Shown: positions 3,451 to 20,280 of the stretch, piece after piece | How positions within the stretch are numbered: position 1 is the stretch's first letter | Layout of the letters: each line of letters opens with the position of its first letter | Assembly: GCA_951812525.1 (NCBI GenBank) | Contig: OX638316.1 | Span: forward strand, 1,562,506 to 1,626,505 | Length of the DNA stretch: 64,000 nt | DNA from: an uncultured Poribacteria bacterium | GTDB lineage: Bacteria; Poribacteria; WGA-4E; WGA-3G | Direction of reading: 5' to 3' | Notes under the pieces: generated by a model | What the model was told of the DNA's origin: nothing | The model's input: the letters and a program-made list of their open reading frames with translations, nothing else | The model's database searches: none | Made by a program: the position numbers and the translations under genes

Positions 3451-3579
3451 AGTTGGTAAAAGTTGGCTATATTTGACAAGCTTCCCTGCATTAGGACAAT
3501 TGGGGCTCTTGGAATATAGATGTATAGTAAGCTTACAATTACTTATACCCTATCCCTTAATAGAAGTGTGTTCGTAGTA

Positions 3580-3595
3580 GGGCGATTCATCGCCC
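3580..3595. repeat. Short palindromic element
   Basis: GGGCGAT-TC-ATCGCCC gives a perfect 7-bp stem. Its GTAG-plus-palindrome form resembles elements at 26818, 51112 and 59043, so it is probably one member of a dispersed REP-like family. It may also act as a transcript end for the upstream SDR gene. Confidence 0.5.
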
Positions 3596-3665
3596 GTCGC
3601 GCCCGAAAATGCTATAGTATTTTTCTACTTCACTATAAATAGTCCTACCCGCTTCATTTTTTAAT

Positions 3666-3693
3666 TTGACAAAATTTCTTTTTTACGTATAAT
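3666..3693 (+). promoter_or_regulatory. Consensus sigma70-type promoter for the 3794-15366 operon
   Basis: TTGACA (3666-3671), a 16-base spacer, and TATAAT (3688-3693): both hexamers match the consensus exactly. Transcription would start near 3700, giving a leader of about 90 bases before the first ATG. It is the best promoter match I found in the window and lies directly ahead of the eight-gene operon. Confidence 0.8.
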
Positions 3694-3793
3694 TTGCTTC
3701 TGTTATTTCCTGATTAGGACTGCAGTATATTCTTCAAACAATCAAAACCTGAGATAGATCGGCAACATTGGAACAATAGATCAATACCCTTAT

Positions 3794-5218
3794 ATGTTGG
3801 TACAGAAAATGGATAAAGAAGAAATACGGTGGAAAACGAGCCTTTTGCCGTTCTTCATCTATCTATGCTTTTTTATTTTCCTAATAAGTTGTGGCAGCGG
3901 TAAGGATTCGGGTATCCCAGATTTTGAGCCCGCTTCCGACATAACGCCTGGCGATATATCGGACAGGCTTGTTGCGCACATCTATTTTGATGCGACACTC
4001 TCAATGCAAGGCTTCGTTGTTCCCGGTTCAACGCATTACACCCGAATCTGTCCCTCTTTAGAGAGTGTGATTGTGAGCGGTTGGCGAGACGAAACAGTAA
4101 GTTTTTTTCGGTTCGGTGAGAGAGTTGAGCTTATTGATAGAGATACTTACTTGCAGGTAAGGGACAAAAGTTTTTACCAAACAGATATCGGAATAAAAAC
4201 GTACATTGAAAAAATTATTGAGAACGAAGACCCGTTAGTCAAACCTCAAGGGGAAGGAAGCGACACGCTTGAAGGCGCAACAGAGATAGATAAAAATAAC
4301 ATGCCTGAAGAGGGGACCGAGTCAGATAGCACAGAAAACCGATTAGTTGTCATTGTGACAGATCTTTTTCAAGATAACGGTGATATAAACCGATTGATTC
4401 CGGAGCTGAAAGAAAAATGTATTAAAAAAGGCGTTGATGTCGGGTTATTCGGGTTACGGAGTCAATTTGATGGCACGGTCTACGACATCGGTATCGGCGA
4501 AGGATCATCGCTGCGTTATCGGAGCATCCCTGGCAATCCTGAAACGTTTCGTCCGTTCTATCTTCTGGTTTTAGGCAGACACGCCGACATCGCACACTAT
4601 TTTGATAGCTTAATAGCAAACGGATTTTCGCAAGCAGAAACGATAATCTTTTCTCGGTATTTGGTCAATCCTTTACTATCGTTTAAGGGTGCAGAAGTTG
4701 ATACAGATAATTTAAATAAAAAAATCGTCAACCGAGTCCATAGCCAAAATCCGATCTTGGAACAATACGAGATTGTGAGAAACTCCGAACCTGCTAAAAT
4801 TTTTGCCAAAATGGAATACAATCCGTTGCGGTCTGCAATGTCCTTCGATTCTAACACGTTTGAGGTTTCTATTATTGCGGAACATAAACCTGATAGAGAC
4901 GGAAAAAATGAACGAAGCCCAGAGGCTATAAATTGTTTAGAAGTGACACCAACGTTTTCGGAAAATGAACTTGCTGTTGAGTTCACTTTGACGACATCCC
5001 TACCCCGTAAAGCGGTATATCTCTATGAAATCACACTGAATCCAGCAATTGACAGATATAAGGAACCCGATTGGTGTTCAGGATGGGATATGGGAACGGG
5101 ACGCAATGGCGCGAGGACTCTCAATTTAGTTAATTTCGTCCGTGGACTTACGGAAACAACTGTCCGTGAACATCTGCCCAAAATCGCTCAATTTTACTTT
5201 TACATCAAGAAAAGGTGA
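3794..5218 (+). CDS. vWA-like lipoprotein, first gene of the tubulin/actin-like operon
   Basis: 474 residues. A hydrophobic N-terminal segment ends in the lipobox LISC with the acylated cysteine at 33, so the protein is probably a periplasm-facing lipoprotein. From about residue 58 it looks like a von Willebrand A domain: VAHIYFDATLSMQGF holds a MIDAS-like D66-x-T68-x-S70, and a later strand RLVVIVTDLFQDNGD carries the usual TD pair. An acidic, low-complexity insert separates the two. The C-terminal 200 residues are not recognised. A second in-frame ATG at 3809 is possible; neither start has a clear ribosome binding site. As gene 1 of the operon it may be the outer, metal-dependent adhesion or scaffold component. 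The vWA assignment is by motif only. Confidence 0.72.
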   Translation: MLVQKMDKEEIRWKTSLLPFFIYLCFFIFLISCGSGKDSGIPDFEPASDITPGDISDRLVAHIYFDATLSMQGFVVPGSTHYTRICPSLESVIVSGWRDETVSFFRFGERVELIDRDTYLQVRDKSFYQTDIGIKTYIEKIIENEDPLVKPQGEGSDTLEGATEIDKNNMPEEGTESDSTENRLVVIVTDLFQDNGDINRLIPELKEKCIKKGVDVGLFGLRSQFDGTVYDIGIGEGSSLRYRSIPGNPETFRPFYLLVLGRHADIAHYFDSLIANGFSQAETIIFSRYLVNPLLSFKGAEVDTDNLNKKIVNRVHSQNPILEQYEIVRNSEPAKIFAKMEYNPLRSAMSFDSNTFEVSIIAEHKPDRDGKNERSPEAINCLEVTPTFSENELAVEFTLTTSLPRKAVYLYEITLNPAIDRYKEPDWCSGWDMGTGRNGARTLNLVNFVRGLTETTVREHLPKIAQFYFYIKKR

Positions 5219-5233
5219 GGAAGTCGTTTAAAA

Positions 5234-5710
5234 ATGCGGGAACACGTCTATTGTATACTTGGTATTTCGTTTTTTACTGCCCTTTTTGTTTTTCTAGCTG
5301 TTGTCGTAGAACCTCTTATTTTAGAGGCATTTCCACCTGACCTGCGCACGAATCTTACAATGACCCAGTGGTTGGAGAGTTTTGAATTATGGGCACTTGT
5401 TTGCGTCGGAGCTGCTGCAGCGGCGAGTTTTTTGTGGTACGGGATCGGTCAGAACGTTTTCAACGCGAATGGTGGGAAATCCTATGGAAAGCGTGGCCTA
5501 TGGGGATTTCTATTTATTTTACCTGTGTGTGCTGTCATTTTTAGTATCCTTCTTATTGAAGAAGCTGAAAGCAGTTTGTGGTTGGCATATCTGTGTTTTG
5601 TGGTGAATGGATTGGCTCCTTATTACCTTGCAACGGTTTTATTTTCGCCAGTGTCCGTTAAACATACACCAATCGGAGCAGAAGGAATCCGTTCTCGATG
5701 CCCTTGGTAA
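5234..5710 (+). CDS. Four-helix integral membrane protein in the tubulin/actin-like operon
   Basis: 158 residues, family not recognised. Four hydrophobic segments are evident: around residues 5-30 (CILGISFFTALFVFLAVVV), 50-70 (ALVCVGAAAAASFLWYGIG), 88-110 (GLWGFLFILPVCAVIFSILL) and 118-145 (LWLAYLCFVVNGLAPYYLA). It starts 15 bases after the lipoprotein gene, with GAGGAAG upstream, and its stop lies 25 bases before the tubulin-like start, so it is translated as part of the same operon. A role as a membrane adaptor for the tubulin-like protein is an inference from position only. Confidence 0.7.
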   Translation: MREHVYCILGISFFTALFVFLAVVVEPLILEAFPPDLRTNLTMTQWLESFELWALVCVGAAAAASFLWYGIGQNVFNANGGKSYGKRGLWGFLFILPVCAVIFSILLIEEAESSLWLAYLCFVVNGLAPYYLATVLFSPVSVKHTPIGAEGIRSRCPW

Positions 5711-5735
5711 GTATTCTTTTCTTGGAGGTAAATTG

Positions 5736-7193
5736 ATGGGATATTATGCAATCGGTATCGGTGGAACAGGGGCGAAATGTCTTGAGTCCTTGATGCATCT
5801 CGCCGCTGCAGGAATGATGCCGGACAAAAAAGAAGAGCTTTACGTGCTTTTTGTTGATCCCGATAAAGCAAACGGTTGCCTTGAGCGTGCTGTGAAGACT
5901 TTGGAGTGTTATAAGACATTTTCCAATAATCCGCAGCTGGCGGCACAACCACATTTATTACAAACCAAGATAGATTCTGACACCACTCCCATTTTTTCCC
6001 CGTTTGATGATGGTAATGACGACAAGCCTCGTTTAGAGGAATTTTTCAACTATGCTGGTCTTAAGTTGGCAGATGATGGGGCAGCGGATCTCTTTGAAGT
6101 GCTTTATAGCGAAAAAGAGAGAAACACCCAGTTACACGAAGGTTTTCGGGGTCATCCGTCCATTGGTGCAGCGGTCATGGCACAAACGGTGTTCGGAGGC
6201 GATGGACCGTGGAAGACATTTCAGACAAAAGTTGCAAAGGATCCAGACGCGAAGATTTTCTTGGCAGGGTCCATTTTTGGCGGCACCGGGGCATCTGGGT
6301 TTCCTACTATAGCAAAACTGATTAAAAGTGCATTGGATGGAAAACCCATAACTGCACAGATAGGTGGCGCGCTGATCCTCCCCTATTTCACGTTCATCGA
6401 TGCTGGCGGCGATAAACAACTCAGAGCAAAGGCAGAGCATTTTCTAATGAATACCCAAGCAGCCCTTCAGTATTATCAACGCTGGAATAAGGATCTTGTT
6501 TACAATGCGATTTATCTCATCGGCGATGATTCTCAAGTTCAGGTTCAAAACTTCTCTCTTGGCGGGAAGGCGCAGCAGAATGCCCAGCATTTTATTGAAC
6601 TCTACGCAGCCTTAGCTGCTATTCACTTTTTTGGCGACGATGGTGCGGCAGATGGAGGAGCTCGGTATTTCAGGTTAGATCGAGCCAATAATCCGCTTAA
6701 TTGGGCGGACCTGCCGGACGGTGACGGCGGTGTGAAGATACAATCACAACTTCGCAGCTTATACCACTTCTCTGTTGCCTATTTAGACGTTTATAAACCG
6801 ATGCTTGACGAGATTCGCAGTGGGAAAATTAGTGGGAATAATGCCCCATGGTACATCGACTTCTTTAAACGGAATACACCTAATAGAATTTCACTTAACG
6901 ATACTAAGATAGAAGAATCGCTCAATAGGGTCAAAGTCTATTGTGAAGATTTCCTTGTGTGGCTTGCTAATGTTCAACATTCTAAAGACAATAACGGAAA
7001 ATTTAATCCTCTTGATAAGTTTGATCTGACAGGAATTGTTAATCGTATTTCATCGGATACTACTATGCGACCTTTAAGGGCTAAGGCTTTGAACGAACTT
7101 TGGCGAAATATGTGCAGTGCTAACGGAAAAAGTGATGGCACTGGTATTGGAAAATTTCTGAGTGCTTTATACCAAAACTGTAAAAAGATTTAA
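5736..7193 (+). CDS. Tubulin/FtsZ-like GTPase-fold protein
   Basis: 485 residues, cytoplasmic. The N-terminal Rossmann start AIGIGGTGAKCLESL (5-19) and the glycine-rich signature GSIFGGTGASGFPTI (G182-G188 = GGTGASG) are the two nucleotide-binding landmarks of the tubulin/FtsZ superfamily; GGTGAS is close to the GGTG(S/T)G of FtsZ. The rest is divergent, as in the tubulin-like families outside FtsZ and TubZ. The ATG at 5736 has a strong GGAGG at 5724-5728; an in-frame ATG at 5607 would overlap the upstream gene by over 100 bases and adds no homologous sequence. From memory, Makarova and Koonin (2010) described FtsZ-like families linked to vWA and OmpA-family proteins; this neighbourhood fits that description. 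Polymerisation and GTP use are predicted, not shown. Confidence 0.8.
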   Translation: MGYYAIGIGGTGAKCLESLMHLAAAGMMPDKKEELYVLFVDPDKANGCLERAVKTLECYKTFSNNPQLAAQPHLLQTKIDSDTTPIFSPFDDGNDDKPRLEEFFNYAGLKLADDGAADLFEVLYSEKERNTQLHEGFRGHPSIGAAVMAQTVFGGDGPWKTFQTKVAKDPDAKIFLAGSIFGGTGASGFPTIAKLIKSALDGKPITAQIGGALILPYFTFIDAGGDKQLRAKAEHFLMNTQAALQYYQRWNKDLVYNAIYLIGDDSQVQVQNFSLGGKAQQNAQHFIELYAALAAIHFFGDDGAADGGARYFRLDRANNPLNWADLPDGDGGVKIQSQLRSLYHFSVAYLDVYKPMLDEIRSGKISGNNAPWYIDFFKRNTPNRISLNDTKIEESLNRVKVYCEDFLVWLANVQHSKDNNGKFNPLDKFDLTGIVNRISSDTTMRPLRAKALNELWRNMCSANGKSDGTGIGKFLSALYQNCKKI

Positions 7194-7258
7194 TAGACTT
7201 CTTAACTTATCTTATGCGTAATAATGCGTACATGCAAAAACAGATTGGAGATTGTTAA

Positions 7259-10207
7259 ATGGCATTTCCACTCCTGCCACCATTAAAGAATGACGGTGAC
7301 GGATTAGGTCCCGTTGCTATAACAGGTACTTGGGTACAGGTCCCTGCTGTTGCCCTTAATAACATTGCTGAAAACCTCGCCGTTACAAAGATTGATGGTA
7401 AATATATTGACATCGATAGCATTCCCAGTATGTGGGCTCGTCCGCTGCTGTTTGAAATAGCACTTTACGATAAAGAGCATCCGATGCATGACTGTGTTGT
7501 GGACGAATGGCGTGGGCTTTTGGCGATGTTAGCACTCAAGGAGCAACAGAAGTTTCAACTCGAGACCAAGCCAATAACAATTCCTGATGGAGACGGTGGA
7601 AAGACTCCAGAGTTTCTCCAGGCATTACGCAAGTTGCTGCCGCAGCGTACATTAGATGAAGGGACGGCGTGGGATAAACTTTATCTCATTTTGTTTGAGG
7701 GCAGACCAATCGGTATAACTTCGCCAACGACCCTTGTATGTACGTCTATTGACTATACTAAGTATATTTCGGTGAATGATGTACCCTGGTATGCTCCGCC
7801 GTTCCTCTGCGATCCGATCCCGGATCTGAACGATGGTGAAAAAACTTCTGTAGCCGGTTGGCTTAATGACTTTCATAAAAAGACAATTATCCCACTCCCT
7901 GCTTCTCCTATAAAGGCAAATCTGGCTTCACGCATTCTTGATTTTATAACGGACTTAGGGGGGGCACCTGACGAACTGCCAAAATTGGCTGATACACCTC
8001 TCGGGATGAGTGTGGGAATCTTCACCGGTATGAATCTCCCGATAGCCTCCAAGGAATACTTCACCGAAAAACTTTTTGTAATCCCCCGGGCAGACGCTTT
8101 TAAGGAGAATGTTCTTTTGCCTACAGGTGGTGATGCACTTAAAGATGTAGATGGTGAGTCTGTCACACCAATTCTCCCCATCGCAAAGGAATTGTTAAGT
8201 GATTTCAGTGTAGACGCATTAAGCAAACGGATTACATTTAAAACGACTCCTGTTGGGATTGAGGTGAGTCTACAGCTTCCTTCCCCCGATGGTGGTCCGG
8301 ATTTTTCCATTTCTCGAGTCTATGTTAATCAGAAAGATGGTGATGCCCCCATATTTGATAAGCACGAAATTGTGGAAATTCCAAATTTACCGGTATTGGA
8401 AATCTGGCCGAATTTTAGAACTCCGGACTGGAAGGTTTACTATACCTATTTTAACAAGGCACAACAAGACACTTTCTATGTCGATCCTTTTCTCACAGAC
8501 GGTAGGCCTGAAGATGTGAAAATTACAAAAACATCTGCTTTTCCTGAAGCGATGATCTGCAAATATAGGGATCCGAAAGCTGCAAACCCTGAGGATGCGG
8601 GATTTTTGTTTATCAAAGCACCGCCGGTAACAGTCCCTGATGGTGCAAAAACTTGGAACGTCGGCATTGATTTCGGTACAAGTAGTACCACCGTCTATAG
8701 AACAGAATTACCAGACGGGGGACCTTCTGCACCTGTCACGTTAAGGGATCGTCTGCTGCAAATTACTGATTCTGGGGATCTACGATCTCTGGTACAAGAT
8801 GACTTTCTTTCCAATCAAGATGAAGAAACGCCTCTTTTTAGTCTATTTCAAGAAAATTCTATCGGAATACCACCGGATGATCGTATAAAACCATTATTGG
8901 ATGGACGTATCTATTTTGTTGACGACCCTACATTGCCGGAAAATGTCATTAGCAACCTCAAATGGTCAGACGATCCGGTAGATCGCAAGCGTACCCAGGC
9001 GTACTTGGAGCAAATTTGCCTTCAATCTGCTGCAGAGGCAGCTGCTGACGGTGTTAGCAAAGTAAATTGGCGTTTTTCCTATCCAATCGCTTTCTCTGCT
9101 GGAGATAGGGCTGATTTTAAGACTATTTGTGAAGCTGCCGCGAACGACATAAGTGAAACAGGCTTTCAAACAGGAGGTGTGAACCTCGAAACGGAAAGTG
9201 TCGTCGCCGGGAGATTCTTTGGAGGTAAGTTCGGAGGTTTTGCTGATGGGGCAGTGTGCATAGACATCGGTGGAGAGACTTCGGATATCTCAATCTGGCA
9301 AAACAATACGTTATGTTGGCAAACATCAATCAGGTTTGCAGGTAGACATATCTTTTTAGACCTGCTTAAACACAAACCCAATTTCTTGAGAGATGTTGGG
9401 GTTACCGAGGCAGGGATTCCAGCACTACATAACCCCAATGATTTTTATAGTCAAGCAGATACATTGATTGACGCATCAATCAATAACTCTCCAAAAGATT
9501 TGAAAGCAAAATTCGGAATTTACGGTGGAAAAATTAAAGCCACACCGTTCGTACCACTCATCGGTCTTGGGATTTCGGGGCTTTTCTATTATGTTGGATT
9601 GATTCTTAATTACCTCGGTACGGAAACCGAGTTTAGAAAGACGATGCCGAATATATATATCGGCGGTAACGGTTCACGTATTCTACACTGGTTGGCAAAC
9701 GGCGAGTTTAAACCAGACAACTACAGTTGTGGACATCTCAAAGATATTCTCCTTACCGCATCAGGCTTCGACCCAAAGAGTCTTTTTGATCTTGAAATCA
9801 CACCGAAACCCAAACATGAGGCTGCCGCAGGATTAGTTGATGCGGGAACGATTCTCAAGTCAACTGAACGTCAGTTTGACTTTTTAGCAGGAGAAGATTT
9901 TACAGAAAATGGAGAAAATAAAGCATGGACAGAACTTCTGATCTCAGAACGTCTTGGGAACGGTCTGAGATCAGGTGATAAATTAGTAAAAATCGAGACA
10001 TTTATCGAGAAATTCAACGCTGGACTTGGCAAAGCACTCGGTCAATCTGTCTATTTTGATGGAACATTGAGGCATAAACTCGCTGGCGATTTAAATAGCG
10101 GCCTCCAAAACCTCGCTTTCACTGACCCCGGAAAACGTATTGTTGAACCTTTGTTTATTCTTGTATTAAAGAATTTATTAAAGCGGGAAACTGAGACCTG
10201 GAAATAA
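7259..10207 (+). CDS. Large actin/Hsp70-fold ATPase-like protein
   Basis: 982 residues in two parts. Residues 1-460 are not recognised. From 465 the actin/Hsp70/sugar-kinase ATPase fold is clear: phosphate-1 motif VGIDFGTSSTTVY (D471, G473, T474), phosphate-2 motif CIDIGGETSDISI (D669, G671-G672, E673), and the adenosine motif IYIGGNGSRIL (G802-G803, G805). The C-terminal 100 residues follow the fold. The ATG at 7259 has TTGGAG eight bases upstream. It sits between the tubulin-like gene and the membrane genes, 65 bases after the former. It could be a filament-forming actin relative or an Hsp70-like assembly ATPase; the length is also near that of SrfB-type proteins, but I cannot align them here. 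Two cytoskeletal NTPase folds in one operon is unusual. Confidence 0.8.
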   Translation: MAFPLLPPLKNDGDGLGPVAITGTWVQVPAVALNNIAENLAVTKIDGKYIDIDSIPSMWARPLLFEIALYDKEHPMHDCVVDEWRGLLAMLALKEQQKFQLETKPITIPDGDGGKTPEFLQALRKLLPQRTLDEGTAWDKLYLILFEGRPIGITSPTTLVCTSIDYTKYISVNDVPWYAPPFLCDPIPDLNDGEKTSVAGWLNDFHKKTIIPLPASPIKANLASRILDFITDLGGAPDELPKLADTPLGMSVGIFTGMNLPIASKEYFTEKLFVIPRADAFKENVLLPTGGDALKDVDGESVTPILPIAKELLSDFSVDALSKRITFKTTPVGIEVSLQLPSPDGGPDFSISRVYVNQKDGDAPIFDKHEIVEIPNLPVLEIWPNFRTPDWKVYYTYFNKAQQDTFYVDPFLTDGRPEDVKITKTSAFPEAMICKYRDPKAANPEDAGFLFIKAPPVTVPDGAKTWNVGIDFGTSSTTVYRTELPDGGPSAPVTLRDRLLQITDSGDLRSLVQDDFLSNQDEETPLFSLFQENSIGIPPDDRIKPLLDGRIYFVDDPTLPENVISNLKWSDDPVDRKRTQAYLEQICLQSAAEAAADGVSKVNWRFSYPIAFSAGDRADFKTICEAAANDISETGFQTGGVNLETESVVAGRFFGGKFGGFADGAVCIDIGGETSDISIWQNNTLCWQTSIRFAGRHIFLDLLKHKPNFLRDVGVTEAGIPALHNPNDFYSQADTLIDASINNSPKDLKAKFGIYGGKIKATPFVPLIGLGISGLFYYVGLILNYLGTETEFRKTMPNIYIGGNGSRILHWLANGEFKPDNYSCGHLKDILLTASGFDPKSLFDLEITPKPKHEAAAGLVDAGTILKSTERQFDFLAGEDFTENGENKAWTELLISERLGNGLRSGDKLVKIETFIEKFNAGLGKALGQSVYFDGTLRHKLAGDLNSGLQNLAFTDPGKRIVEPLFILVLKNLLKRETETWK

Positions 10208-10225
10208 CGGTGTGGAGGACTTTTG

Positions 10226-11251
10226 ATGCAAGGTATTAAAATTGGTTACGTACATCAAAATCTTTGGTGCTGTATTCTGGTGTGTCTTATCGTCGTCTGT
10301 CCTTTTCTGGCATCGGCAGAAGAGCACGACACGCAATCCGAACCTCAAGAAACACCCCAAGTTCAGAATCAAAGCCCCCCACAGGTGACCCGGCAGGACA
10401 TTCGTGACATGAATACTAGGCTGATTGAACAGCAAGAAATGCTCACGAATCACTTCACTAGATCTATCGTTATATTTGGGATTCTACTGTTTGTAATCTT
10501 GTTATCTTTCACTTGGTTGTTTTACCAATATAGAAGTCTCGCTTCTCAATTGAACGATATTAAGAATCAGGTAGGAAAGTTTTTAAGCGTTAATAGTAGT
10601 TTAAAGCGGGACTTGTCAAATATTAGCAGCCGTATTCAAAAGCTTGCGAAAATATCTAATATAGAAAAGTTAGCGACCGAAAATCAAAATAGCACACAAA
10701 AAATTCTCAAACTTCTTAAACCCGCTGTGAATGAGGCCATAATTGAGGTTTCGTCGCCATGTGAAGAAAAATTGGAATCTTCCGAACAGATAGCGGAAAA
10801 TACAAGGGACCTTGAACTTACACCTGCTATCGCAGGTCTCTGTGCCCGCTACAATGCTGGCATTCAAGACAAAAACAGGCGAAACGATTTTTTACAACGT
10901 TATCACAATCCCTATAAGATTTATGTAGAAAATGCAACAGACCGTCGCGTAAAGCAGCAGATAAAGCCCATATTTAAGACTCACCACGCCGCTGGTAATT
11001 TTTGGGGATGCTATGTTGAAGAAGAAAAATTATATGCAGTTGTCCCTGCTTATCAATTGAGAATAGTACATGCGATCCTTCATTACGGGGCATTTGTTGA
11101 TGTGTTTGAATGCTATGAACATGAATTTGATGATCCAGACGGTTGTTATGAGGTTGTAAGGATTATCAAACCTGCAATTTTTGAACCATATGATGCAAAA
11201 GAAACATGGACGCTTCAATCAAAAGGGATATTAGAATTAAAAGAGGTCTAA
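10226..11251 (+). CDS. Signal-peptide-bearing membrane coiled-coil protein of the operon
   Basis: 341 residues, family not recognised. A cleavable signal peptide ends near PFLASA-EEHD (about residue 33). A short Pro/Gln-rich stretch follows, then a transmembrane helix (SIVIFGILLFVILLSFTWLF, about 85-105), then a coiled-coil region rich in Leu/Ile/Lys (about 110-170), and a C-terminal globular domain (from about 200) with several Trp/Tyr/Cys residues. I chose the ATG at 10226, with GGAGGA at 10214-10219, over the TTG one codon earlier. Topology suggests a periplasmic N-terminus and a cytoplasmic coiled coil and C-terminal domain, so it could link the envelope parts to the tubulin-like or actin-like proteins. 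Confidence 0.7.
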   Translation: MQGIKIGYVHQNLWCCILVCLIVVCPFLASAEEHDTQSEPQETPQVQNQSPPQVTRQDIRDMNTRLIEQQEMLTNHFTRSIVIFGILLFVILLSFTWLFYQYRSLASQLNDIKNQVGKFLSVNSSLKRDLSNISSRIQKLAKISNIEKLATENQNSTQKILKLLKPAVNEAIIEVSSPCEEKLESSEQIAENTRDLELTPAIAGLCARYNAGIQDKNRRNDFLQRYHNPYKIYVENATDRRVKQQIKPIFKTHHAAGNFWGCYVEEEKLYAVVPAYQLRIVHAILHYGAFVDVFECYEHEFDDPDGCYEVVRIIKPAIFEPYDAKETWTLQSKGILELKEV

Positions 11252-11328
11252 AGGACATCTGTTAGCAATTGAAAGTCCGCCGATAAGAGAACTCCAACCG
11301 TTTAAGGCTACTTAATAGAAAAACACTT

Positions 11329-13581
11329 ATGTTATCATTCTTTAGCGAATACCTATCTCCCGCCAACTCAATTGCTTTAGTCATTGTAATATGCCTATTC
11401 TGTTTTTTTATCGCTTGGCTTGTTGGATTGATAACATATTGGCGTAGACTGTCAATAAAAAAGATAGAGATCGAAGATAATCAAGATATCCAACCACTCG
11501 TTACTGCCAGACAAGAACGGGACCGCGGACGTGATGATAATGAAGCAGAAACGGATGCTAATCCGGTTTTCCAAGAATTTTGCGAGCAACGTTCCCTTAG
11601 CAAAGACTCGTTTATCTCAAAACATCTCAAAGCAATTTTCTTAGCTGGTTGGAATGAGAGCCGCCTTGAAGTCAGTGAGTTGATTAATCATACCACCTCC
11701 AACTTGTTTAGATGGAACAGCCTGCTCCGTTCCGTATTAGCAATTTTTATCGTAATTGGGCTGCTCGGCACGCTTTTCGGGCTTACCGATAGTTTGGTGG
11801 AGCTTTCTCCTGCCCTGAAGGCGAGTGCCGAAAGGCGAACCCCGGCAGAAAATGACGAAACGAATGCTCCTGCTGATGCCGATAGCGAGAATAGCAGACA
11901 GATGACCAAAGCGTTAAGTGACCTCATGGATGATATTAAGGGGGCTTTTGCACCGAGCATCGCGGGGGTATTCTTTACAGTATTAGGCGTTATTCTTTAC
12001 GGTATCTTTCTACGATTCGCTTGTCATCCAGTTAAGTCCATTCTGGAACAGTTGACGTTAACCGTCTGGGTACCACAACTCTATCCGACGACATCCCAAA
12101 AACTCATCCAAACCCTTCAAGAGAGTGAAGCCCAGATGCGGAGTGGCTACGAAACTGCGATACGGGTTGATGGATTGGTCGAAAATATACAAACAAACGT
12201 CGATGAATTCAATGAAAGTCTCACGCAAGCCAACGCGATTACCGAACCGCTGGCTGAGTCGGGTACGAAAATCAACGAGGCAGCATCATCTATCAGTACC
12301 GCTGCGTCTGAACTCAACCAAGGTTTTACAAGGAGTCTTAACGATTTCGCAGACATAATTAACAGAGGATTTTTACGGAGTCTCACCGAATTTTCAGAGA
12401 CATTTACATCAAGCATCACCCAGTTAACCGGTTTTCAAGATGAAATCCGCAAACTTCACGGAGAGTTTCAAGAAGCAGCAAACCAAAAATTAGACCGACA
12501 GACTGAAAAATTAAATCAACAGAATCAAAACCTTATTCAAAATTCAAATGCTCTGGACCAGGTACTAAATGTTCTAAAAGACTACGAGACTGCTTATATT
12601 GATTCTCGGAAGCAAATTGACGAAACACTGCAAGACTTTATTAGAAAAGCGACAGGGACAAATACAAGTATCTATACGAAGAATCGCGAGTGGTTTGAAA
12701 AAATAGACGAGACTAACAGACAGCAGTTTGCAGAGATGCAGAGTCAACTGACAACAGAGATCGGAGCTATTCAACAGACATTCAGAAACCAATTAGATGA
12801 CCTTACGGGGCAGTTAACCGAGAAGCTTGGAAACGTGCAGCAAGGTTTGAATAGTGGGTTGACGACGCTAAATGAGCGGTTAGAGAATTTTGATACGCCT
12901 CTCAGAGAAACTGTAGAAGAACTTAAAGGCGGTTTTGATGAACGGTTAGCAACGCTAAATGAGCAGTTAGAAAAATTTAATGAACCTCTCCAAGAGTCTG
13001 CAAAAAATATGAGAGGAACGTTTGCCGATTTAGTTCAACATATGCGAGAGATGTTTGGCAACCTACAACGAGAGATAAGAGAACAAAATGAAAAATACGA
13101 GGCACAACTCATCGGCGTTAAAGATTTAAATAAAGGTGTTATAAACTTGTTGACTCAATTAGATGAGAGCAGTAAAAACCAGAGTACTGCGATTAGCACA
13201 CTCAATTCTAAAGTCGAGAATTTGACCGAAAACACCCAAAACCTCGCTGTTGCAATTACATCCTTTACATCCGATTCGGAAGCTATCAAGGATTACATCG
13301 CAACCATTGAAAGGCATACCGCGACATTAGGCACTACATCGCAACAATTCGTGGAAAAAGTGGCAAGAGCCGATGTTACACCATTGAACGTGAATATCGA
13401 GAGACTCAATACCATTATTGGGGCTATTTCTCGGGACTCTCAAACCTTAGCAATTACTGTTAGCCAATTAGCGAGGCAGATAAATTCATCGGGAACGACT
13501 GAATCAGATCGACATCGGAAGAAACGTTCATTTTTCAGCAAGTTCAACCCATTTTCCCGAAGGAAAACAGATGGAAGATAA
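11329..13581 (+). CDS. MotA/ExbB/TolQ-like channel protein with long coiled-coil tail (ZorA-like architecture)
   Basis: 750 residues. Three membrane helices are visible: about 14-38, 132-155 (SVLAIFIVIGLLGTLFGL, the GLLGT(L/V)xG hallmark of MotA/ExbB/TolQ) and 211-232 (IAGVFFTVLGVILYGIFLRF, matching the final channel helix with its small-residue face). From about 255 to 735 the protein is almost entirely heptad-rich coiled coil with many Gln, Asn, Thr and Leu, ending in a basic tail. A channel domain followed by a very long cytoplasmic tail is the layout of ZorA of Zorya defence. The stop lies 11 bases inside the next gene, the MotB-like partner, which indicates translational coupling. Expected role: peptidoglycan-anchored stator driven by ion flow. 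Confidence 0.8.
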   Translation: MLSFFSEYLSPANSIALVIVICLFCFFIAWLVGLITYWRRLSIKKIEIEDNQDIQPLVTARQERDRGRDDNEAETDANPVFQEFCEQRSLSKDSFISKHLKAIFLAGWNESRLEVSELINHTTSNLFRWNSLLRSVLAIFIVIGLLGTLFGLTDSLVELSPALKASAERRTPAENDETNAPADADSENSRQMTKALSDLMDDIKGAFAPSIAGVFFTVLGVILYGIFLRFACHPVKSILEQLTLTVWVPQLYPTTSQKLIQTLQESEAQMRSGYETAIRVDGLVENIQTNVDEFNESLTQANAITEPLAESGTKINEAASSISTAASELNQGFTRSLNDFADIINRGFLRSLTEFSETFTSSITQLTGFQDEIRKLHGEFQEAANQKLDRQTEKLNQQNQNLIQNSNALDQVLNVLKDYETAYIDSRKQIDETLQDFIRKATGTNTSIYTKNREWFEKIDETNRQQFAEMQSQLTTEIGAIQQTFRNQLDDLTGQLTEKLGNVQQGLNSGLTTLNERLENFDTPLRETVEELKGGFDERLATLNEQLEKFNEPLQESAKNMRGTFADLVQHMREMFGNLQREIREQNEKYEAQLIGVKDLNKGVINLLTQLDESSKNQSTAISTLNSKVENLTENTQNLAVAITSFTSDSEAIKDYIATIERHTATLGTTSQQFVEKVARADVTPLNVNIERLNTIIGAISRDSQTLAITVSQLARQINSSGTTESDRHRKKRSFFSKFNPFSRRKTDGR

Positions 13582-14386
13582 TACATTAGATTTCAATTTT
13601 TGGCCCTCCTTTTCAGACTTAATGCTGACGCTTGTCTTAATATTGGTGATTGTCGTGTTTGCTGTGATTGCCGCATTTTCCATCGGAACAGACGATCTGA
13701 GAGCAGAACTAAAAGATACTAAAAAAGAAATGGCTAAAGTTGAAAAAGAACAGAAAGAGATAGCCGAAGCAATCGCTAAAGTTAAAAAAAAACAGGAAGC
13801 GATAATCCAAGCAATCGCTGAAGCGTACAACGTTAAATGGGAAGATGTCGATGGATGGAAAGATGAAGAAAGCAAGACCAATTTTTTCGAGATTCCAATC
13901 TACCTTGAAAATGGAGGCGACACAAAAATTCAGATCCAAAACGAGGCAACACTCCAACGCTATAGTTTTAGCGACCGTATTCTGTTTAGACGAAACAAAT
14001 ATGATCTGAACGAAGAAGGAAAGAGGACACTTCGGGTTGTCGGTCACGAAATAAAAAAGAATTTAAAGGACATCAAGGAGATACAGATCCAAGGGCATGC
14101 AGACCCTGACGGTCCGGCTAATAAGCCTTTTTTTAACTTAGATCTCGCAGCATCGCGCGCCATTGAGGTCTATAAATTTTTACGACGCAACATTAGAATA
14201 GATCCGGCGAGTCATCTTATGTCAGCAACCTCTTTCGGTGAGTACAAACCTGTTCAACGTTCAACTGATGATCGCACTTATAACCGACAGAAACTCAGGC
14301 AGCATAATAGTCCGCCTGCGTTAAAAGCTAAAAACCGCCGCATTGAAATTCTGCTATTTTATCGACTTGAGCAAACAGACCGATAA
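13571..14386 (+). CDS. MotB/OmpA-like peptidoglycan-binding stator partner (ZorB-like)
   Basis: 271 residues. The N-terminus has FWPSFSDLMLTLVLIL, a single helix with the protonatable aspartate D16 in the position used by MotB/ZorB. A Lys/Glu coiled coil (45-90) follows, then an OmpA/MotB domain (about 125-265) with IQGHADPDGP, NLDLAASRA, ATSFGEYKP and KNRRIEI; the Asp and Arg in these segments are those that hold diaminopimelate in OmpA domains. It overlaps the MotA-like gene by 11 bases and uses AAGGA ahead of the ATG. Together the two should form an A5B2-type ion channel clamped to peptidoglycan. No ZorC or ZorD gene follows. Confidence 0.87.
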   Translation: MEDNTLDFNFWPSFSDLMLTLVLILVIVVFAVIAAFSIGTDDLRAELKDTKKEMAKVEKEQKEIAEAIAKVKKKQEAIIQAIAEAYNVKWEDVDGWKDEESKTNFFEIPIYLENGGDTKIQIQNEATLQRYSFSDRILFRRNKYDLNEEGKRTLRVVGHEIKKNLKDIKEIQIQGHADPDGPANKPFFNLDLAASRAIEVYKFLRRNIRIDPASHLMSATSFGEYKPVQRSTDDRTYNRQKLRQHNSPPALKAKNRRIEILLFYRLEQTDR

Positions 14387-14400
14387 AAGGATAGTTCCGT

Positions 14401-15366
14401 ATGTACATTCGGTTGCTTGCCGCCTTATTTCTCGGGAGTCTCCTTATCACTCTAAACAGCCATGCACAAGACACACTCAGCGACGTTCGGATCGTGGAAG
14501 GAATCGTCCAGCAGCGCCCGCCGAATACCCGACAGACACTCGGGAGACGGTACGTTTGGAATTTTAAGGGAAAATCCTATACCGTGCTCATGACGATTGA
14601 CATCGAAAGGTATAATTTCTATGGCGGTAAAGAACGCTACGATATTCCCCGAATGGTCGAAGAGGGGCGAACAACAATAGGGAACCTTACGCGTGAATTT
14701 CAGAACGTCTTCAAACGGCATCGCGAGTGGTCAAAACAGGATCGTGTAGACTTTGTCCTGAGTTTCGTCCAATCTTTACCCTATACACTCGACGACGTGA
14801 CGACAGGTTACGACGAATTCAGACGCTACGCTATTGAAACTCTGATTGAGGGTGGTGGTGATTGTGAAGATACTACGATTTTGATTGGTGCCATTCTGCG
14901 TGGCTTAGGTGAAAAGACAGCACTCATCTTTACACCTGGACACATTGCTCTCGGTGTGAGTGGCAATTTCACTGGTGCCTCGGTCCCCTACAACGGCACA
15001 GCGTATTATTATTGTGAGACCACTGGCACGGGTTGGACTGTTGGCGATCTGCCTCCGTCCTCTGGCACGACCGTGACCAATATCATCCCTTTAACGCCCT
15101 CGAAAATAGGAACCACCCCGAAACCGAACAGGATAATACCGCCCGCGCCTACGCCTCACACGCCAGCACCAGAAATCATAACACCGACACCGAGAACACC
15201 TCCAATAAAAACGACACCTGAAGCACCCAAATCTGGAACCCAAAATGACACTCAGCCAAAGAGTCGCCTCGGTACTGCTATTGTTATCCTTTTTATCCTT
15301 ATCGGTCTTGGTATCTCTACAGTATATTTCCTGCACCGAGCCTTTAAAGAACAGCGTGAATACTAG
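14401..15366 (+). CDS. Membrane-anchored transglutaminase-like cysteine protein, last gene of the operon
   Basis: 321 residues. A signal peptide (MYIRLLAALFLGSLLITL, cleavage after SHA near 22) leads into a transglutaminase-like domain: catalytic Cys155 in EGGGDCEDTT, His181 in TPGHIALGV, and an acidic candidate E206 in YYYCETTGTGWTVG. A Pro/Thr-rich linker (about 225-285) precedes a C-terminal transmembrane helix (TAIVILFILIGLGISTVYFL). It would therefore sit in the periplasm, tethered to the inner membrane, and could process peptides or cross-links in the envelope. It begins 14 bases after the MotB-like gene with AAAGGA upstream. It closes the eight-gene run; the next gene on the strand is 334 bases away. 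Confidence 0.78.
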   Translation: MYIRLLAALFLGSLLITLNSHAQDTLSDVRIVEGIVQQRPPNTRQTLGRRYVWNFKGKSYTVLMTIDIERYNFYGGKERYDIPRMVEEGRTTIGNLTREFQNVFKRHREWSKQDRVDFVLSFVQSLPYTLDDVTTGYDEFRRYAIETLIEGGGDCEDTTILIGAILRGLGEKTALIFTPGHIALGVSGNFTGASVPYNGTAYYYCETTGTGWTVGDLPPSSGTTVTNIIPLTPSKIGTTPKPNRIIPPAPTPHTPAPEIITPTPRTPPIKTTPEAPKSGTQNDTQPKSRLGTAIVILFILIGLGISTVYFLHRAFKEQREY

Positions 15367-15373
15367 CAAAACA

Positions 15374-15392
15374 CTAACTCGGACACAGTTAG
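15374..15392 (+). terminator. Weak inverted repeat at the operon end
   Basis: CTAACT (15374-15379) and AGTTAG (15387-15392) form a 6-bp stem with a 7-base loop just after the last stop codon. There is no T-run, so it is at best a weak or factor-dependent end. Confidence 0.3.
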
Positions 15393-15527
15393 GGATACCC
15401 TCCTATTGAACTCAGTGATTGATAATTTCGCCGCTGTGTCTTTGAAAAAAATTGCAGCTGAAGTTCAGGAAATTGTTTGAGTTTTTAGTGTGATTTGGAT
15501 TTTTGGCTTATGCAAAACCACAGAATA

Positions 15528-15536
15528 TGATATAAT
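15528..15536 (+). promoter_or_regulatory. Extended -10 promoter candidate for the PhyH gene at 15701
   Basis: TGATATAAT supplies a perfect TATAAT with an upstream TGn. No good -35 stands 17 bases before it, which extended -10 promoters tolerate. The leader would be about 158 bases. Confidence 0.45.
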
Positions 15537-15700
15537 CTATAATAGCGATGCTGGCGTTTGATTCAACCTTCCACGAACTTACTTTACCTATTACCTTAAA
15601 GATTCACTCCTTGCAGCCTATTGCCGTGAGTAGCTGCTTGCGCTGAGCATTAAAATGGACCTTAGGAAAATCCAAAACAATTAATACATGGAGAAACACA

Positions 15701-16604: not shown

Positions 16605-17828
16605 ATGAAAGATTCAAGGTTTATTACAAGAGTCGTTCTAAGGAACTATAAAAGTATTCCCGTGTGTGATGTGCAGCTGCAGCCTTTAACCTTTCTCGTG
16701 GGTCCCAACGGCGCAGGCAAGAGCAACTTTCTTGATTCGCTCCGATTCGTTGCCGATGCGTTGAATTCATCACTGGATCATGCCTTACGCGACCGTGGTG
16801 GTATCAATGATGTCCGCCGTCGCTCCGGTGGGCATCCAAACCATTTCGGTATCCGTCTTGATTTCACTTTACCTGCAGGGGCTACAGGACACTATGCCTT
16901 TCGTATTATTGCGCGTGAACGTGGCGGATATGAAGTTCAGAGCGAAGAATGTGTGATACAGGACGCGCAGCTTTTCGCGCCACAGAAATACTTCCGCGTT
17001 GTTAATGGTAAGGTAACCAATTCAAGTGTAGATGTGGCACCCGTTGCCGACTGTAGTCGGTTCTACTTGGTAAACGCATCTGGACTGCCAGAGTTTCGGC
17101 CTGTCTATGAAGCATTTTCTCGTATGGGATTTTATAACTTCAATCTTGATAAGATTCGGGATCTCCAAATACCAGAGACTGGCGACATGCTTATGCCAGA
17201 TGGCAGCAATCTAACCAGTGTGCTTGCCCGATTCTCACGTCCTGCTAAGCAACATATTGAGGGATATCTGGCGAAAATCGCGCCCGGTATACATGGGGTC
17301 CGGGTTAAAGAACTTGGACACAAGGAGACACTGGAGTTCCGACAAAGTATGGCAGGTGCAAAATATCCTTGGCGATTTTTGGCAAACAATATGTCTGAAG
17401 GCACACTGCGTGCTTTGGGGATTCTGGTAGCTCTGTTTCAAGGAAATCACGACGAACAGCACCGAGTAATGCTTGTGGGGATTGAAAAACCAGAGATGGC
17501 ACTTCACCCCGCAGCCTTAGGTGTGTTACTTGACGCACTTCGGGATGCTGCCGAGAGCACACAAATTGTTCTCACGAGCCACAGTCCAGACCTACTCGAT
17601 AACAAGGATTTGAATGCCGAGTCAATTCTTGCAGTTGAAGCGCGTGATGGAAATACAGCAATCGCCCAAGTTGACAAAACAGGAAAGTCTGTTCTAAGAG
17701 ACCGATTGTCTACAACGGGGGAACTGCTACGTCGCAATCGACTGAAACCTGATACAGCAGCTACTGTGTCTACTGCAGATACGCCACAGCTTCAGCTGTT
17801 CGGTTCTGAAGAAGCAGATTCTGAGTAA
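16605..17828 (+). CDS. AAA-family (RecF/SMC-like, AAA_21) ATPase without a partner gene
   Basis: 407 residues. Walker A is GPNGAGKSN (33-41), Walker B region MLVGIEKPEMALHP (the usual EEPE reads EKPE), a signature-like MSEGTLRALG lies before it, and LTSHSPDLLD follows. The middle is divergent. This is the layout of stand-alone ATPases related to RecF and OLD that usually pair with a TOPRIM or DUF4276 gene. A second ATPase of this type at 47647 has such a partner; here the next gene is a sulfatase. The C-terminus (DTPQLQLFGSEEADSE) is acidic. GAGGTAAGG precedes the ATG. A defence or DNA-repair role is possible, not shown. Confidence 0.8.
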   Translation: MKDSRFITRVVLRNYKSIPVCDVQLQPLTFLVGPNGAGKSNFLDSLRFVADALNSSLDHALRDRGGINDVRRRSGGHPNHFGIRLDFTLPAGATGHYAFRIIARERGGYEVQSEECVIQDAQLFAPQKYFRVVNGKVTNSSVDVAPVADCSRFYLVNASGLPEFRPVYEAFSRMGFYNFNLDKIRDLQIPETGDMLMPDGSNLTSVLARFSRPAKQHIEGYLAKIAPGIHGVRVKELGHKETLEFRQSMAGAKYPWRFLANNMSEGTLRALGILVALFQGNHDEQHRVMLVGIEKPEMALHPAALGVLLDALRDAAESTQIVLTSHSPDLLDNKDLNAESILAVEARDGNTAIAQVDKTGKSVLRDRLSTTGELLRRNRLKPDTAATVSTADTPQLQLFGSEEADSE

Positions 17829-17921: not shown

Positions 17922-19325
17922 ATGGAAAACAGACCTAATGTCATTTTTGTTTTAACGGACGACCAAGGACCTTGGGCAGCTGGATGCTGCGGTAACGATG
18001 AGGTACGTACACCCTATCTCGACCAATTGGCTTCAGAAGGCACTCGTTTTCCCAATTTTTTCTGCACAAGCCCTGTCTGTTCTCCGGCGCGTGCCAGCCT
18101 CATGACCGGTCGTATTCCCTCAGCGCACGGTGTACACGACTGGATCCGCGACGGAAACATGCCACCCGACCCTGCGCAATACCTCGACGGATTAACCTGT
18201 TATACCGACGTCTTAGCCGACAATGACTATACAGTTGGGCTTAGTGGCAAATGGCACCTTGGCGATAGTTTAACACCACAACACGGGTTCAGCCACTGGT
18301 TCTCTTTGCTCACCGGTGGAAGTAAGTATAACGATGCAGATATGATTCGAGATGGACAGGTTGAAATGCAACCCGGCTATCTCACCGACGTTATCACCGA
18401 TGATGCGTTGAACTTTATCTCTGCGAACAAAGACGGACCCTTTTATCTCAGCGTCAACTACAACGCACCGCATACCCCTTTCGACGGGCACCCACAAGAC
18501 ATCGTTGACTCCTACGACGATTGTCCCTTCAAAACGTGTCCACAAGAGGCACTGCACCCGTGGGCGGTGCAGGGAGCCGCTGTTCACATGGGCAACCGTG
18601 AATCGCTAAAAGGCTATTTTGCTGCGATCACCGCACTCGACTTAAATGTCGGGCGGATTCTTGATAGACTCGCCGAACTCGGCATCCGTGAAAATACGCT
18701 CGTTGTCTTCAGTAGTGATAACGGCTATTCATGCGGGCATCACGGGTTTTGGCATAAAGGAAACGGCACGTTCCCGCTAAATATGTATGAAAACTCTGTC
18801 AAGGTTCCCTTCATTATGAGTCAACCCGGTAGGATTCCAGAAGGTCGCGTCAGTGAAGCGATGGTCAGTCAATACGATTTCATGCCGACACTGCTTGAGT
18901 ACCTCGGTTTACCTGATCCGAATGACGATATGTCCCCCGGCAGGAGTTTTGTTCCTACACTCTCTGGGGATACAAACGACGCGAAAGATGAGATCGTCAT
19001 CTATGATGAATACGGTCCCGTACGCATGATTCGGACGCAAGAGTGGAAATATGTCCATAGATATCCTTATGGGCCGCATGAACTCTATGATTTGGTTAAT
19101 GATCCAGATGAACGGAAAAATCTTATAGATGAAAGGTCGCAGGAGGCTCGGATAGCCGACATGCGACAGCAGATGGGGGCATGGTTCCAACGATACGTCT
19201 TACCGCAGTTAGATGGCGCAAGATGCTCCGTTACCGGTGGTGGTCAAGCCGCGAAAATAGAGGAAGGGCAGGTTGGTGAAGGAGCATTCCATCCGAGATA
19301 CGCTCCGCCTCAACGGAATGTATAG
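17922..19325 (+). CDS. Type I (formylglycine) sulfatase
   Basis: 467 residues, alkaline-phosphatase fold. Metal aspartates D13/D14 in VLTDDQG; the C-x-P-x-R site CSPAR with Cys53 to be converted to formylglycine; K110/H112 in GKWHLG; H184 in APHTPF; D266/N267 in FSSDNGYS; and a late Lys279. All catalytic positions I can check are present. No signal peptide is evident, so the enzyme is probably cytoplasmic unless exported by another route. ATG at 17922 preceded by GGAGG. Activity needs a formylglycine-generating enzyme or anSME elsewhere. The substrate, perhaps a sulfated glycan or small sulfate ester, cannot be read from sequence. Confidence 0.93.
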   Translation: MENRPNVIFVLTDDQGPWAAGCCGNDEVRTPYLDQLASEGTRFPNFFCTSPVCSPARASLMTGRIPSAHGVHDWIRDGNMPPDPAQYLDGLTCYTDVLADNDYTVGLSGKWHLGDSLTPQHGFSHWFSLLTGGSKYNDADMIRDGQVEMQPGYLTDVITDDALNFISANKDGPFYLSVNYNAPHTPFDGHPQDIVDSYDDCPFKTCPQEALHPWAVQGAAVHMGNRESLKGYFAAITALDLNVGRILDRLAELGIRENTLVVFSSDNGYSCGHHGFWHKGNGTFPLNMYENSVKVPFIMSQPGRIPEGRVSEAMVSQYDFMPTLLEYLGLPDPNDDMSPGRSFVPTLSGDTNDAKDEIVIYDEYGPVRMIRTQEWKYVHRYPYGPHELYDLVNDPDERKNLIDERSQEARIADMRQQMGAWFQRYVLPQLDGARCSVTGGGQAAKIEEGQVGEGAFHPRYAPPQRNV

Positions 19326-19369
19326 AAATAGCGGTTGATGAATGTCAAATAGTGATTAGGAACCCTCGA

Positions 19370-19410
19370 AAATCGCCAACAGCTGACCGCCAACAGCCAA
19401 CAGCTAATAT
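19370..19410. repeat. Degenerate CCAACAGCTGACCG short tandem repeat
   Basis: CGCCAACAGCTGACCG, then CCAACAGCCAACAGCT: about five imperfect 7-8 base units immediately ahead of the AAGGAG of the next gene. Similar runs lie at 22306, 25567 and 30841. Confidence 0.55.
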
Positions 19411-19422
19411 GAAAGGAGCGAA

Positions 19423-20280
19423 ATGGCGAGAGCATTTGCCCCTGGCAACATCTCTTGTGTTTTCAAAGTTATTCCGCACCCCGACACCGCCCGTATGCAC
19501 TCACTCGGCATGGGGTTCACCGTTACGGAAGGTGTAGATGTTACCGTCTCTAATTATCATGAGACAGCAGTGCTATTTAACGGGGAAGACATCGACTTTC
19601 CCACAGTGCGTGCCGTAGTTGATCGGTTAATTCAGAACACAGAGGTCACAGGCATAAAGATAAATCTTACTTCTCCCTTACCTCTCGGCTGCGGCTTCGG
19701 ACTTAGCGGTGCCGCTGCACTCGCAACAGCCTATGCCCTCAATGAACACTTAAATCTCCGCAAGGATACAGAATCGCTCGCCATGATAGCGCATGTTGCG
19801 GAAGTTGAAAATCGTACCGGACTCGGAGATGTATGTTCGCAATATCACGGCGGCTGCCTCGTCAAATTAAAAGAAGGTGCCCCTTTAGTCGCCGATAGGC
19901 TACCAATCGCAGAACAACCCATCTATTACCGATACTTCGGACCTATTCAGACAAGCGAGGTGCTAGGAAATAGAGAACAGACCCTGCGTATCAATCGTGC
20001 CGCAGATATTGCGTTGAACACTTTGCGAACACTTACACATGCTGAGCCGGATGCTGGACTCTTTAACGCCTGTTTTGCCGTCTCGAAGCAGTTTTCAGTA
20101 CAGAGCGGTCTGCTCAGTGATGAAAGGGTAATCGACACAATTGCACAGATTGAGGCAGAAGGTGGCGTGGCATCGATGATCATGTTAGGAAACGGCGTTT
20201 TTAGCACGCACCCTTTTGCAGGTGCCGAAGAAACAAGACTTGTTTACAATCCAGCACGCCTTATAGACAAAAGTTCATAG
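19423..20280 (+). CDS. GHMP-family kinase, pantoate-kinase-like (COG1829 type)
   Basis: 285 residues. It opens with ARAFAPGNIS, like the AFAPGHI start of archaeal pantoate kinases, and has the GHMP phosphate loop PLPLGCGFGLSGAAA (85-99) with the following helix ATAYALN. E129 and D136 lie in EVENRTGLGDV, the metal and base region. A late glycine motif (SMIMLGNGVF) completes the fold. The ATG at 19423 has AAGGAG at the right distance. In archaea this family phosphorylates pantoate for CoA synthesis; bacteria normally use pantothenate kinase, so either this is a transferred enzyme or it acts on another small acid or sugar. Next to it is a membrane protein and a PfkB kinase. Confidence 0.65.
   Translation: MARAFAPGNISCVFKVIPHPDTARMHSLGMGFTVTEGVDVTVSNYHETAVLFNGEDIDFPTVRAVVDRLIQNTEVTGIKINLTSPLPLGCGFGLSGAAALATAYALNEHLNLRKDTESLAMIAHVAEVENRTGLGDVCSQYHGGCLVKLKEGAPLVADRLPIAEQPIYYRYFGPIQTSEVLGNREQTLRINRAADIALNTLRTLTHAEPDAGLFNACFAVSKQFSVQSGLLSDERVIDTIAQIEAEGGVASMIMLGNGVFSTHPFAGAEETRLVYNPARLIDKSS

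Follow-up and report, generated by a model that had tools for sequence, protein, structure and literature searches.

A mobile eight-gene operon of Poribacteria predicted to join a tubulin-like protein, an actin/Hsp70-superfamily ATPase and an ion-driven stator

We analyzed a stretch of 64,000 nucleotides (hereafter, the window) from contig OX638316.1 (assembly GCA_951812525.1, positions 1,562,506 to 1,626,505) of an uncultured member of the Poribacteria, a group of sponge-dwelling bacteria. Our analysis considered an operon of eight open reading frames, g1 to g8, that lie on the plus strand at 3794-15366 and are predicted to encode a tubulin-like protein, an actin/Hsp70-like ATPase, a stator pair and several envelope proteins. 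The intergenic gaps are 15, 25, 65, 18, 77, -11 and 14 bases. The strongest promoter-like site ahead of the operon (3666..3693, plus strand; TTGACA, a spacer of 16 bases and TATAAT) is of the sigma-70 type, matches at 12 of 12 positions and lies 100 bases 5' of the first gene. Sites of this type are not in excess over shuffled sequence in a scan of the region; this one is exact and in the same position in six of nine aligned relatives, and a seventh (L015) presents TTGACA with TATACT. The layout given in a preliminary description of this DNA, namely a same-strand operon of eight genes with short gaps or overlap behind one consensus promoter, was thus borne out.

Matches over the Pfam cut-offs were obtained for g3, g6 and g7 only, the other five genes having no over-threshold match, and this should be considered when referring to the assignments below (one further match, to the tail of g6, is borderline and of low complexity). 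The short tubulin-like protein encoded by g3 (5736..7193, plus strand; 485 amino acids, aa) matches Tubulin_2 with E=2.8e-8 and 33.9 bits, the curated cut-off being 27. It carries the loops GIGGTG (T1) and FGGTGAS (T4), of which FGGTGA is a variant of the GTP-binding loop signature GGGTG(S/T)G of Tubulin_2/FtsZl1. All 11 of its 11 homologues match Tubulin_2 (E<=0.05), six of them also matching PF00091, and the residues of T1 GGxG and T4 FGGTGA are invariant across phyla. By sequence profile, rather than by structure, g3 is therefore placed as a tubulin-like member of Tubulin_2, that is, of the FtsZl1 superfamily. A role as the cell-division FtsZ was rejected, as g3 has no FtsZ_C match and a separate FtsZ of 437 aa is encoded elsewhere in the genome. 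The neighbouring g4 (7259..10207, plus strand; 982 aa) presents the motifs of the actin/Hsp70 superfamily (ASKHA): phosphate-1 D471xGTSxT (471-477), connect E646, phosphate-2 D669IGGxTSD (669-677) and adenosine GGNGSR (802-807), which are kept across phyla, wholly or in large part. Its only Pfam match, to FtsA (8e-4, sub-threshold), is limited to the phosphate-2 segment, to which the profile match to MreB/FtsA structures (4e-5) is also confined, and the N-terminal ~460 residues have no match to known proteins. We consider g4 a predicted ASKHA ATPase with its ATP-site motifs kept. A PDB sequence search with poribacterial profiles of g1, g3 and g4 yielded no useful match.

The next pair of interest is g6 (11329..13581, plus strand), a predicted channel with three transmembrane (TM) segments, and g7 (13571..14386, plus strand), a predicted one-TM partner with an OmpA peptidoglycan-binding domain. 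The former matches MotA_ExbB (PF01618, 1.8e-5, over cut-off) and has a tail of ~480 residues rich in predicted coiled coil, while the latter matches OmpA (PF00691, 5.6e-12, over cut-off) as well as MotB structures (1e-7). Asp16, in the TM segment of g7, is invariant among its homologues and is present in that of L094 (L and G numbers denote the loci and genomes examined). Together, a MotA_ExbB domain and a one-TM partner with a putative ion-binding Asp identify g6/g7 as a predicted stator of the MotAB/ExbBD/ZorAB type. PADLOC reports g7 as ZorB-like (1e-15) and g6 as a long-tailed ZorA-like protein, and ZorAB has been described as a conserved core joined to differing cytoplasmic effectors (PMC11890865). 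One can thus conceive of a Zorya-type anti-phage defence, in which the stator would sense envelope perturbation and its tail would recruit or trigger tubulin/Hsp70 effectors, a possibility that we hold tentatively. However, the scores reach only 33 of the 190 and 31 of the 400 bits set as the NCBIfam cut-offs for Zorya, no domain known for killing, such as a nuclease or a helicase, was recognised in the operon, and, with no ZorC, ZorD or ZorE, membership of Zorya itself was rejected.

The remaining genes encode envelope proteins. The g1 product (3794..5218, plus strand; 474 aa) is a lipoprotein with the lipobox LISC33 and, with no Pfam match, is predicted to be of the von Willebrand factor A (vWA) type by its metal ion-dependent adhesion site (MIDAS; D66-A-T-L-S70 and T189-D190). 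Residues C33, D66, S70, T189 and D190 are invariant; the motif is DxTxS in the window and the canonical DxSxS in L012, L015, L094 and L119, the last two being cross-phylum homologues with DASASM/DNSGSM. The g2 product (5234..5710, plus strand; 158 aa) is a putative inner-membrane protein with four hydrophobic segments, for which profile matches were found in L088, L089 and L115, and elsewhere a similar-sized multi-TM protein stands at the equivalent position. A membrane-anchored coiled-coil adaptor is predicted for g5 (10226..11251, plus strand; start ATG at 10226, with an alternative TTG at 10223), with a signal peptide, a TM segment at 82-100, a coiled coil and a C-terminal domain that we infer to be cytoplasmic. 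Its N-terminal part varies between poribacterial classes; at its position, L094, L118 and L119 encode a TM and coiled-coil protein, and profile matches were obtained in the cyanobacterial loci discussed below. Where g5 would stand, loci from the phylum of G091 instead encode a protein of 903-999 aa whose N-terminus is hydrophobic (L093:4976-7972 and L189:10275-12983) and which has fn3/Ig-like domains in L093.

The last gene, g8 (14401..15366, plus strand), encodes a predicted periplasmic cysteine protease with a signal peptide, a Pro-rich linker and a C-terminal TM segment. Its match to PDB 4fgo (3e-5) points to a transglutaminase-fold, LapG-like enzyme, of which C155 and H181 are invariant and the third triad residue is uncertain. 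As it scores 19 of the 320 bits of the curated LapG cut-off, it is related to, rather than being, LapG proper. It is also the most conserved of the operon proteins (mean distance 0.16) and nearly unchanged in some of the long-form loci described below, which could be taken to mean that the operon controls a surface structure, with g8 processing an envelope protein under the governance of the stator and the vWA lipoprotein. We regard this as improbable, since the loci examined outside Poribacteria showed no homologue of g8, and no substrate or LapD-like regulator was identified, although none was searched for. Overall, the component assignments of the preliminary description stand, by Pfam for Tubulin_2, MotA_ExbB and OmpA, by 4fgo for g8, by the MIDAS for g1 and by the ASKHA motifs for g4.

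For the distribution analysis, the sample contained one genome per species, and the collection scan was made with a single-protein query, which finds close relatives only. The full eight-gene set was found in the same order in nine further poribacterial genomes, two more copies being cut by contig ends, and order and content are kept in every complete poribacterial copy. Among 85 poribacterial genomes, the tubulin profile and the Hsp70 profile pick out one common set of 12, apart from a 13th genome in which a short Hsp70 fragment is matched. Beyond Poribacteria, tblastn revealed adjacent tubulin and Hsp70-like genes on Gloeothece and Picosynechococcus plasmids and in Prevotella. A core consisting of the g1 vWA lipoprotein, a multi-TM protein, g3 and g4 is collinear in the cyanobacterial plasmids, in Prevotella, in G136 and in the phylum of G091. 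Profile searches in one other phylum yielded a seven-gene order in five genomes (G224, G412, G424, G408 and G425), consisting of g1, TM, g3, g4, TM coiled-coil, MotA and MotB/OmpA genes without g8; some genes of G408 were taken from raw matches, and in G424 and G408 both g2 and g5 were assigned by position only. The core is accompanied by the TM coiled-coil gene without the stator in G136, and the cyanobacterial and Bacteroidota members likewise have the core without the stator. In G091 and G539, of another phylum, the tubulin and Hsp70 genes were found, preceded in G539 by g1 and the TM gene. No relatives were confirmed in the viral contigs and phages searched. As order and content are kept in other genomes, chance adjacency of the eight genes was ruled out, and the conserved unit anticipated in the preliminary description was recovered, with the eight families together in Poribacteria and the core in other phyla. 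The plasmid location of the cyanobacterial core might suggest a plasmid or chromosome segregation system of the TubZ/ParM kind. This is very improbable and was rejected, given the separate ParA on the Gloeothece plasmid, the envelope parts and the chromosomal copies; moreover, no centromere-binding gene was recognised.

The operon is a 12-kb insertion, accessory and moving between genome sites. In the window, it occupies a segment of 12.25 kb (3451..15700) between an SDR gene ending at 3450 and a PhyH gene starting at 15701, while in 12 relatives these two genes are ~48-114 bases apart (the empty site). Eight relatives carry the operon at one other common site, and L015 has the upstream genes of the window. 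Direct and inverted repeats were sought at the insertion edges and none were found. Inside the left edge, at 3519-3640 of the window, lies a dispersed repeat (its core being GGGCGATTCATCGCCC) of which other genomes of the genus have many copies. In L015, a gene situated between SDR and the operon (L015:2955-6617) encodes a protein of 1221 aa, for which Pfam gives WD40 repeats and PADLOC a HEAT-ARM match. The operon of G082 is preceded by pieces of IS630-type transposase and followed by a toxin-antitoxin pair of the HigB/HigA kind (L066:5039-6222 and 19245-19912), both recognised by reading rather than by profile.

Different parts of the operon have different histories. Synonymous divergence from the window is 0.24 for g3, 0.57 for g5 and 0.16 for g7 in L013, and 0.70 for g3 and 0.18 for g7 in L018, with breakpoints inside g4 and g6. 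As such sharp shifts along the operon are hard to obtain from protein selection alone, we ascribe them to mosaic recombination. Among g3, g4 and g5, pairwise distances are correlated with one another (r 0.75-0.97; p<=0.001 by Mantel test), as are those of g2 with g3-g5 (r 0.64-0.74, without a Mantel test), whereas those of g7 and g8 are uncorrelated with g3-g5 (r near 0 or negative) and g6 is intermediate. Across phyla, tubulin and Hsp70 distances correlate with r=0.98. The tubulin, the Hsp70-like protein and the membrane adaptor are thus co-inherited, while the stator partner and the protease move independently. In L017 (4001-4217, minus strand), the final 225 bases of g8 recur in decayed form ~0.8 kb past g8, the two being separated by an unrelated gene of 202 aa, the start region of which is common to L013; the decayed piece seems to be what is left of an earlier copy, or of recombination where g8 ends. 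A patchy, moving and recombining unit would suit the Zorya-type defence considered above, but the flanking neighbours are mostly metabolic, and several relatives are without the stator. Near the insertion, on the PhyH side of the resident locus, the window encodes an AAA_21 ATPase (16605-17825; PADLOC HEC-01A, 3.7e-157), and the gene directly 5' of the operon in L018 (L018:14413-15285) has a Swt1-like HEPN match that falls narrowly under the cut-off.

In the 2010 paper by Makarova and Koonin (PMC2875224), FtsZl1 (Tubulin_2) genes have vWA and OmpA neighbours, and frequently but not universally a P-loop GTPase neighbour, while the majority of the FtsZl1 proteins have a long coiled coil and a helical C-terminal domain. 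We examined seven poribacterial loci of this long form (L120-L126, L123 being a 5-kb contig). In six, a tubulin of 1038-1163 aa is surrounded by a MotA homologue (HH 98.8% to g6), an OmpA homologue (99.9% to g7), a small TM protein, a vWA protein (the one that was read has DVSGSM) and, next to the tubulin, an Hsp70-like partner that aligns to g4 (HH E 1.3e-5) and in L122 matches PF00012 (2e-29). The actin/Hsp70 partner and the MotA-type channel, which the preliminary description saw as a replacement for the GTPase and as an addition, respectively, are thus not peculiar to the operon but already carried by the long loci. Close, near-identical homologues of g8 occur in L122, L124 and L126 (E 1e-133 to 3e-173), but none was found in L120, L121, L123 or L125, where the stretches end before or near the expected place, so that absence is not implied. 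Between the two forms, no homology of the vWA genes could be recognised (HH no higher than 16%), and alignment of the tubulins is confined to the surroundings of the T4 loop (HH 52%, E 1.4e-4). These searches found both forms together in none of the 85 genomes, which is unsurprising with 12 and ~10 genomes, respectively. In view of the common part list, the short operon and the long loci are predicted to be two versions of one machine. Membrane remodelling was proposed for FtsZl1 in the same paper, and here a tubulin/Hsp70 assembly might deform the membrane or form vesicles, with the force coming from the stator as it works against the wall. The superfamily with its vWA and OmpA neighbours, the presence of two membrane anchors (g2 and g5) and the parallel part list are all in agreement with this possibility. 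Nonetheless, the original proposal was built on gene context, and a rare accessory occurrence is ill-suited to a housekeeping role, such that we consider it with reservation, at roughly one chance in three.

Taken together, we propose, as a reading that could equally well be right or wrong, that the operon encodes one envelope-spanning machine, in which a membrane-tethered tubulin/Hsp70 module is coupled to a wall-anchored ion motor. The periplasm would hold the vWA lipoprotein, the peptidoglycan-binding arm of g7 and the LapG-like protease; the inner membrane, judging from hydrophobic segments, would hold the g6/g7 ion channel, the four-TM g2 and the g5 adaptor with its C-terminal domain facing the cytoplasm; and the cytoplasm would hold the long g6 tail, the GTP-binding g3 and the ATP-binding g4. 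In such a layout, g5 and g2 would tether the tubulin-Hsp70 assembly to the membrane, g4 may load or remodel the tubulin, and the ion-powered stator, anchored to the wall via g7, could, much as in ZorAB, pass envelope state or force to the assembly via the g6 tail. The proposal builds on the domain identities, the intact nucleotide and ion-path motifs, the cross-phylum order and the g3-g4-g5 co-inheritance, all of which are seen at the level of sequence. As for its role, an accessory response to envelope insult, by phage or other attack, following a Zorya-like logic, is plausible while falling short of an even chance; local remodelling of the membrane, vesicle formation or the assembly of a surface structure is possible, with somewhat lower confidence. 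Secretion, also named in the preliminary description, may be a role as well. That ion flux through the wall-braced g6/g7 acts as the drive or gate of a tubulin/Hsp70 polymer tethered to the membrane, in short and long versions and as an exchangeable accessory cassette, is rather doubtful; we found no bacterial precedent for such an ion-driven stator acting on a cytoskeletal assembly.

The proposed machine has some points against it that need to be considered. The tubulin T7 catalytic motif was not recognised in g3, which bears on GTP hydrolysis and polymerisation; the T6-H7 elements of FtsZl1 likewise could not be placed in the 2010 paper. AlphaFold2 models from seven sequences reached a pLDDT of only 39 for g3 and 37.6 for g4, because sequence depth was too small, and the tubulin fold without which the preliminary description would fall (5736-7193) is predicted from the over-cut-off Tubulin_2 match. 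The stator and the protease are absent from several relatives and are therefore not essential to the core, the stator being predicted to be a separable module. Linked divergence of g3-g5 may also come from the physical linkage of neighbours. Placement in a defence island is not supported, as the flank PADLOC matches are mostly to generic ATPases, and no phenotype is tied to the system.

In the open-access literature, which omits most subscription journals, we found no description of a tubulin, an actin/Hsp70 ATPase and a stator in combination; the nearest are the 2010 FtsZl1 paper and a 2023 survey that sets Tubulin_2 aside. Our search of the literature also revealed no experiment on the function of the FtsZl1 superfamily. 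A tubulin GTPase, an actin/Hsp70 ATPase and an ion-driven stator, which are usually studied apart, are here predicted to be joined in one inherited unit, the linkage of the tubulin with partner parts recurs across phyla, and the FtsZl1 superfamily gains a fuller part list. As the core is present in culturable cyanobacteria (Picosynechococcus and Gloeothece), it is testable there.

When compared with known systems, the operon resembles LapG proteases (BTLCP) in the Cys-His transglutaminase-like sequence, signal peptide and 4fgo match of g8, which differs in its C-terminal TM anchor, its place in a tubulin/stator operon and a score far under the LapG cut-off. The virulence-factor family SrfB (PF07520) is weakly matched (0.0011) by the long-form Hsp70 partner, and g4 is of similar size but has no SrfB match itself. 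Zorya ZorAB (PMC11890865) shares the long-tailed MotA-type channel and the MotB-type peptidoglycan-binding partner, whereas here, under the cut-offs and without ZorC/D/E, the partners of the stator are a tubulin and an Hsp70-like protein. The long poribacterial loci share the MotA, OmpA, TM-coiled-coil and Hsp70-like partners, as well as g8 in three of them; g3, however, has 485 aa as opposed to 1038-1163 aa and lacks both the long coiled coil and the helical C-terminal domain. As for FtsZl1 in the available part of the 2010 paper, the operon has a Tubulin_2 homologue with vWA (g1) and OmpA (g7) neighbours, but none of its other seven genes matches a GTPase family, and the MotA and Hsp70/actin partners are both unnamed there. 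The preliminary description was thus right to see in the operon a relative of the FtsZl1/vWA/OmpA neighbourhoods, equipped with a predicted ASKHA ATPase and a MotA/MotB-type stator.

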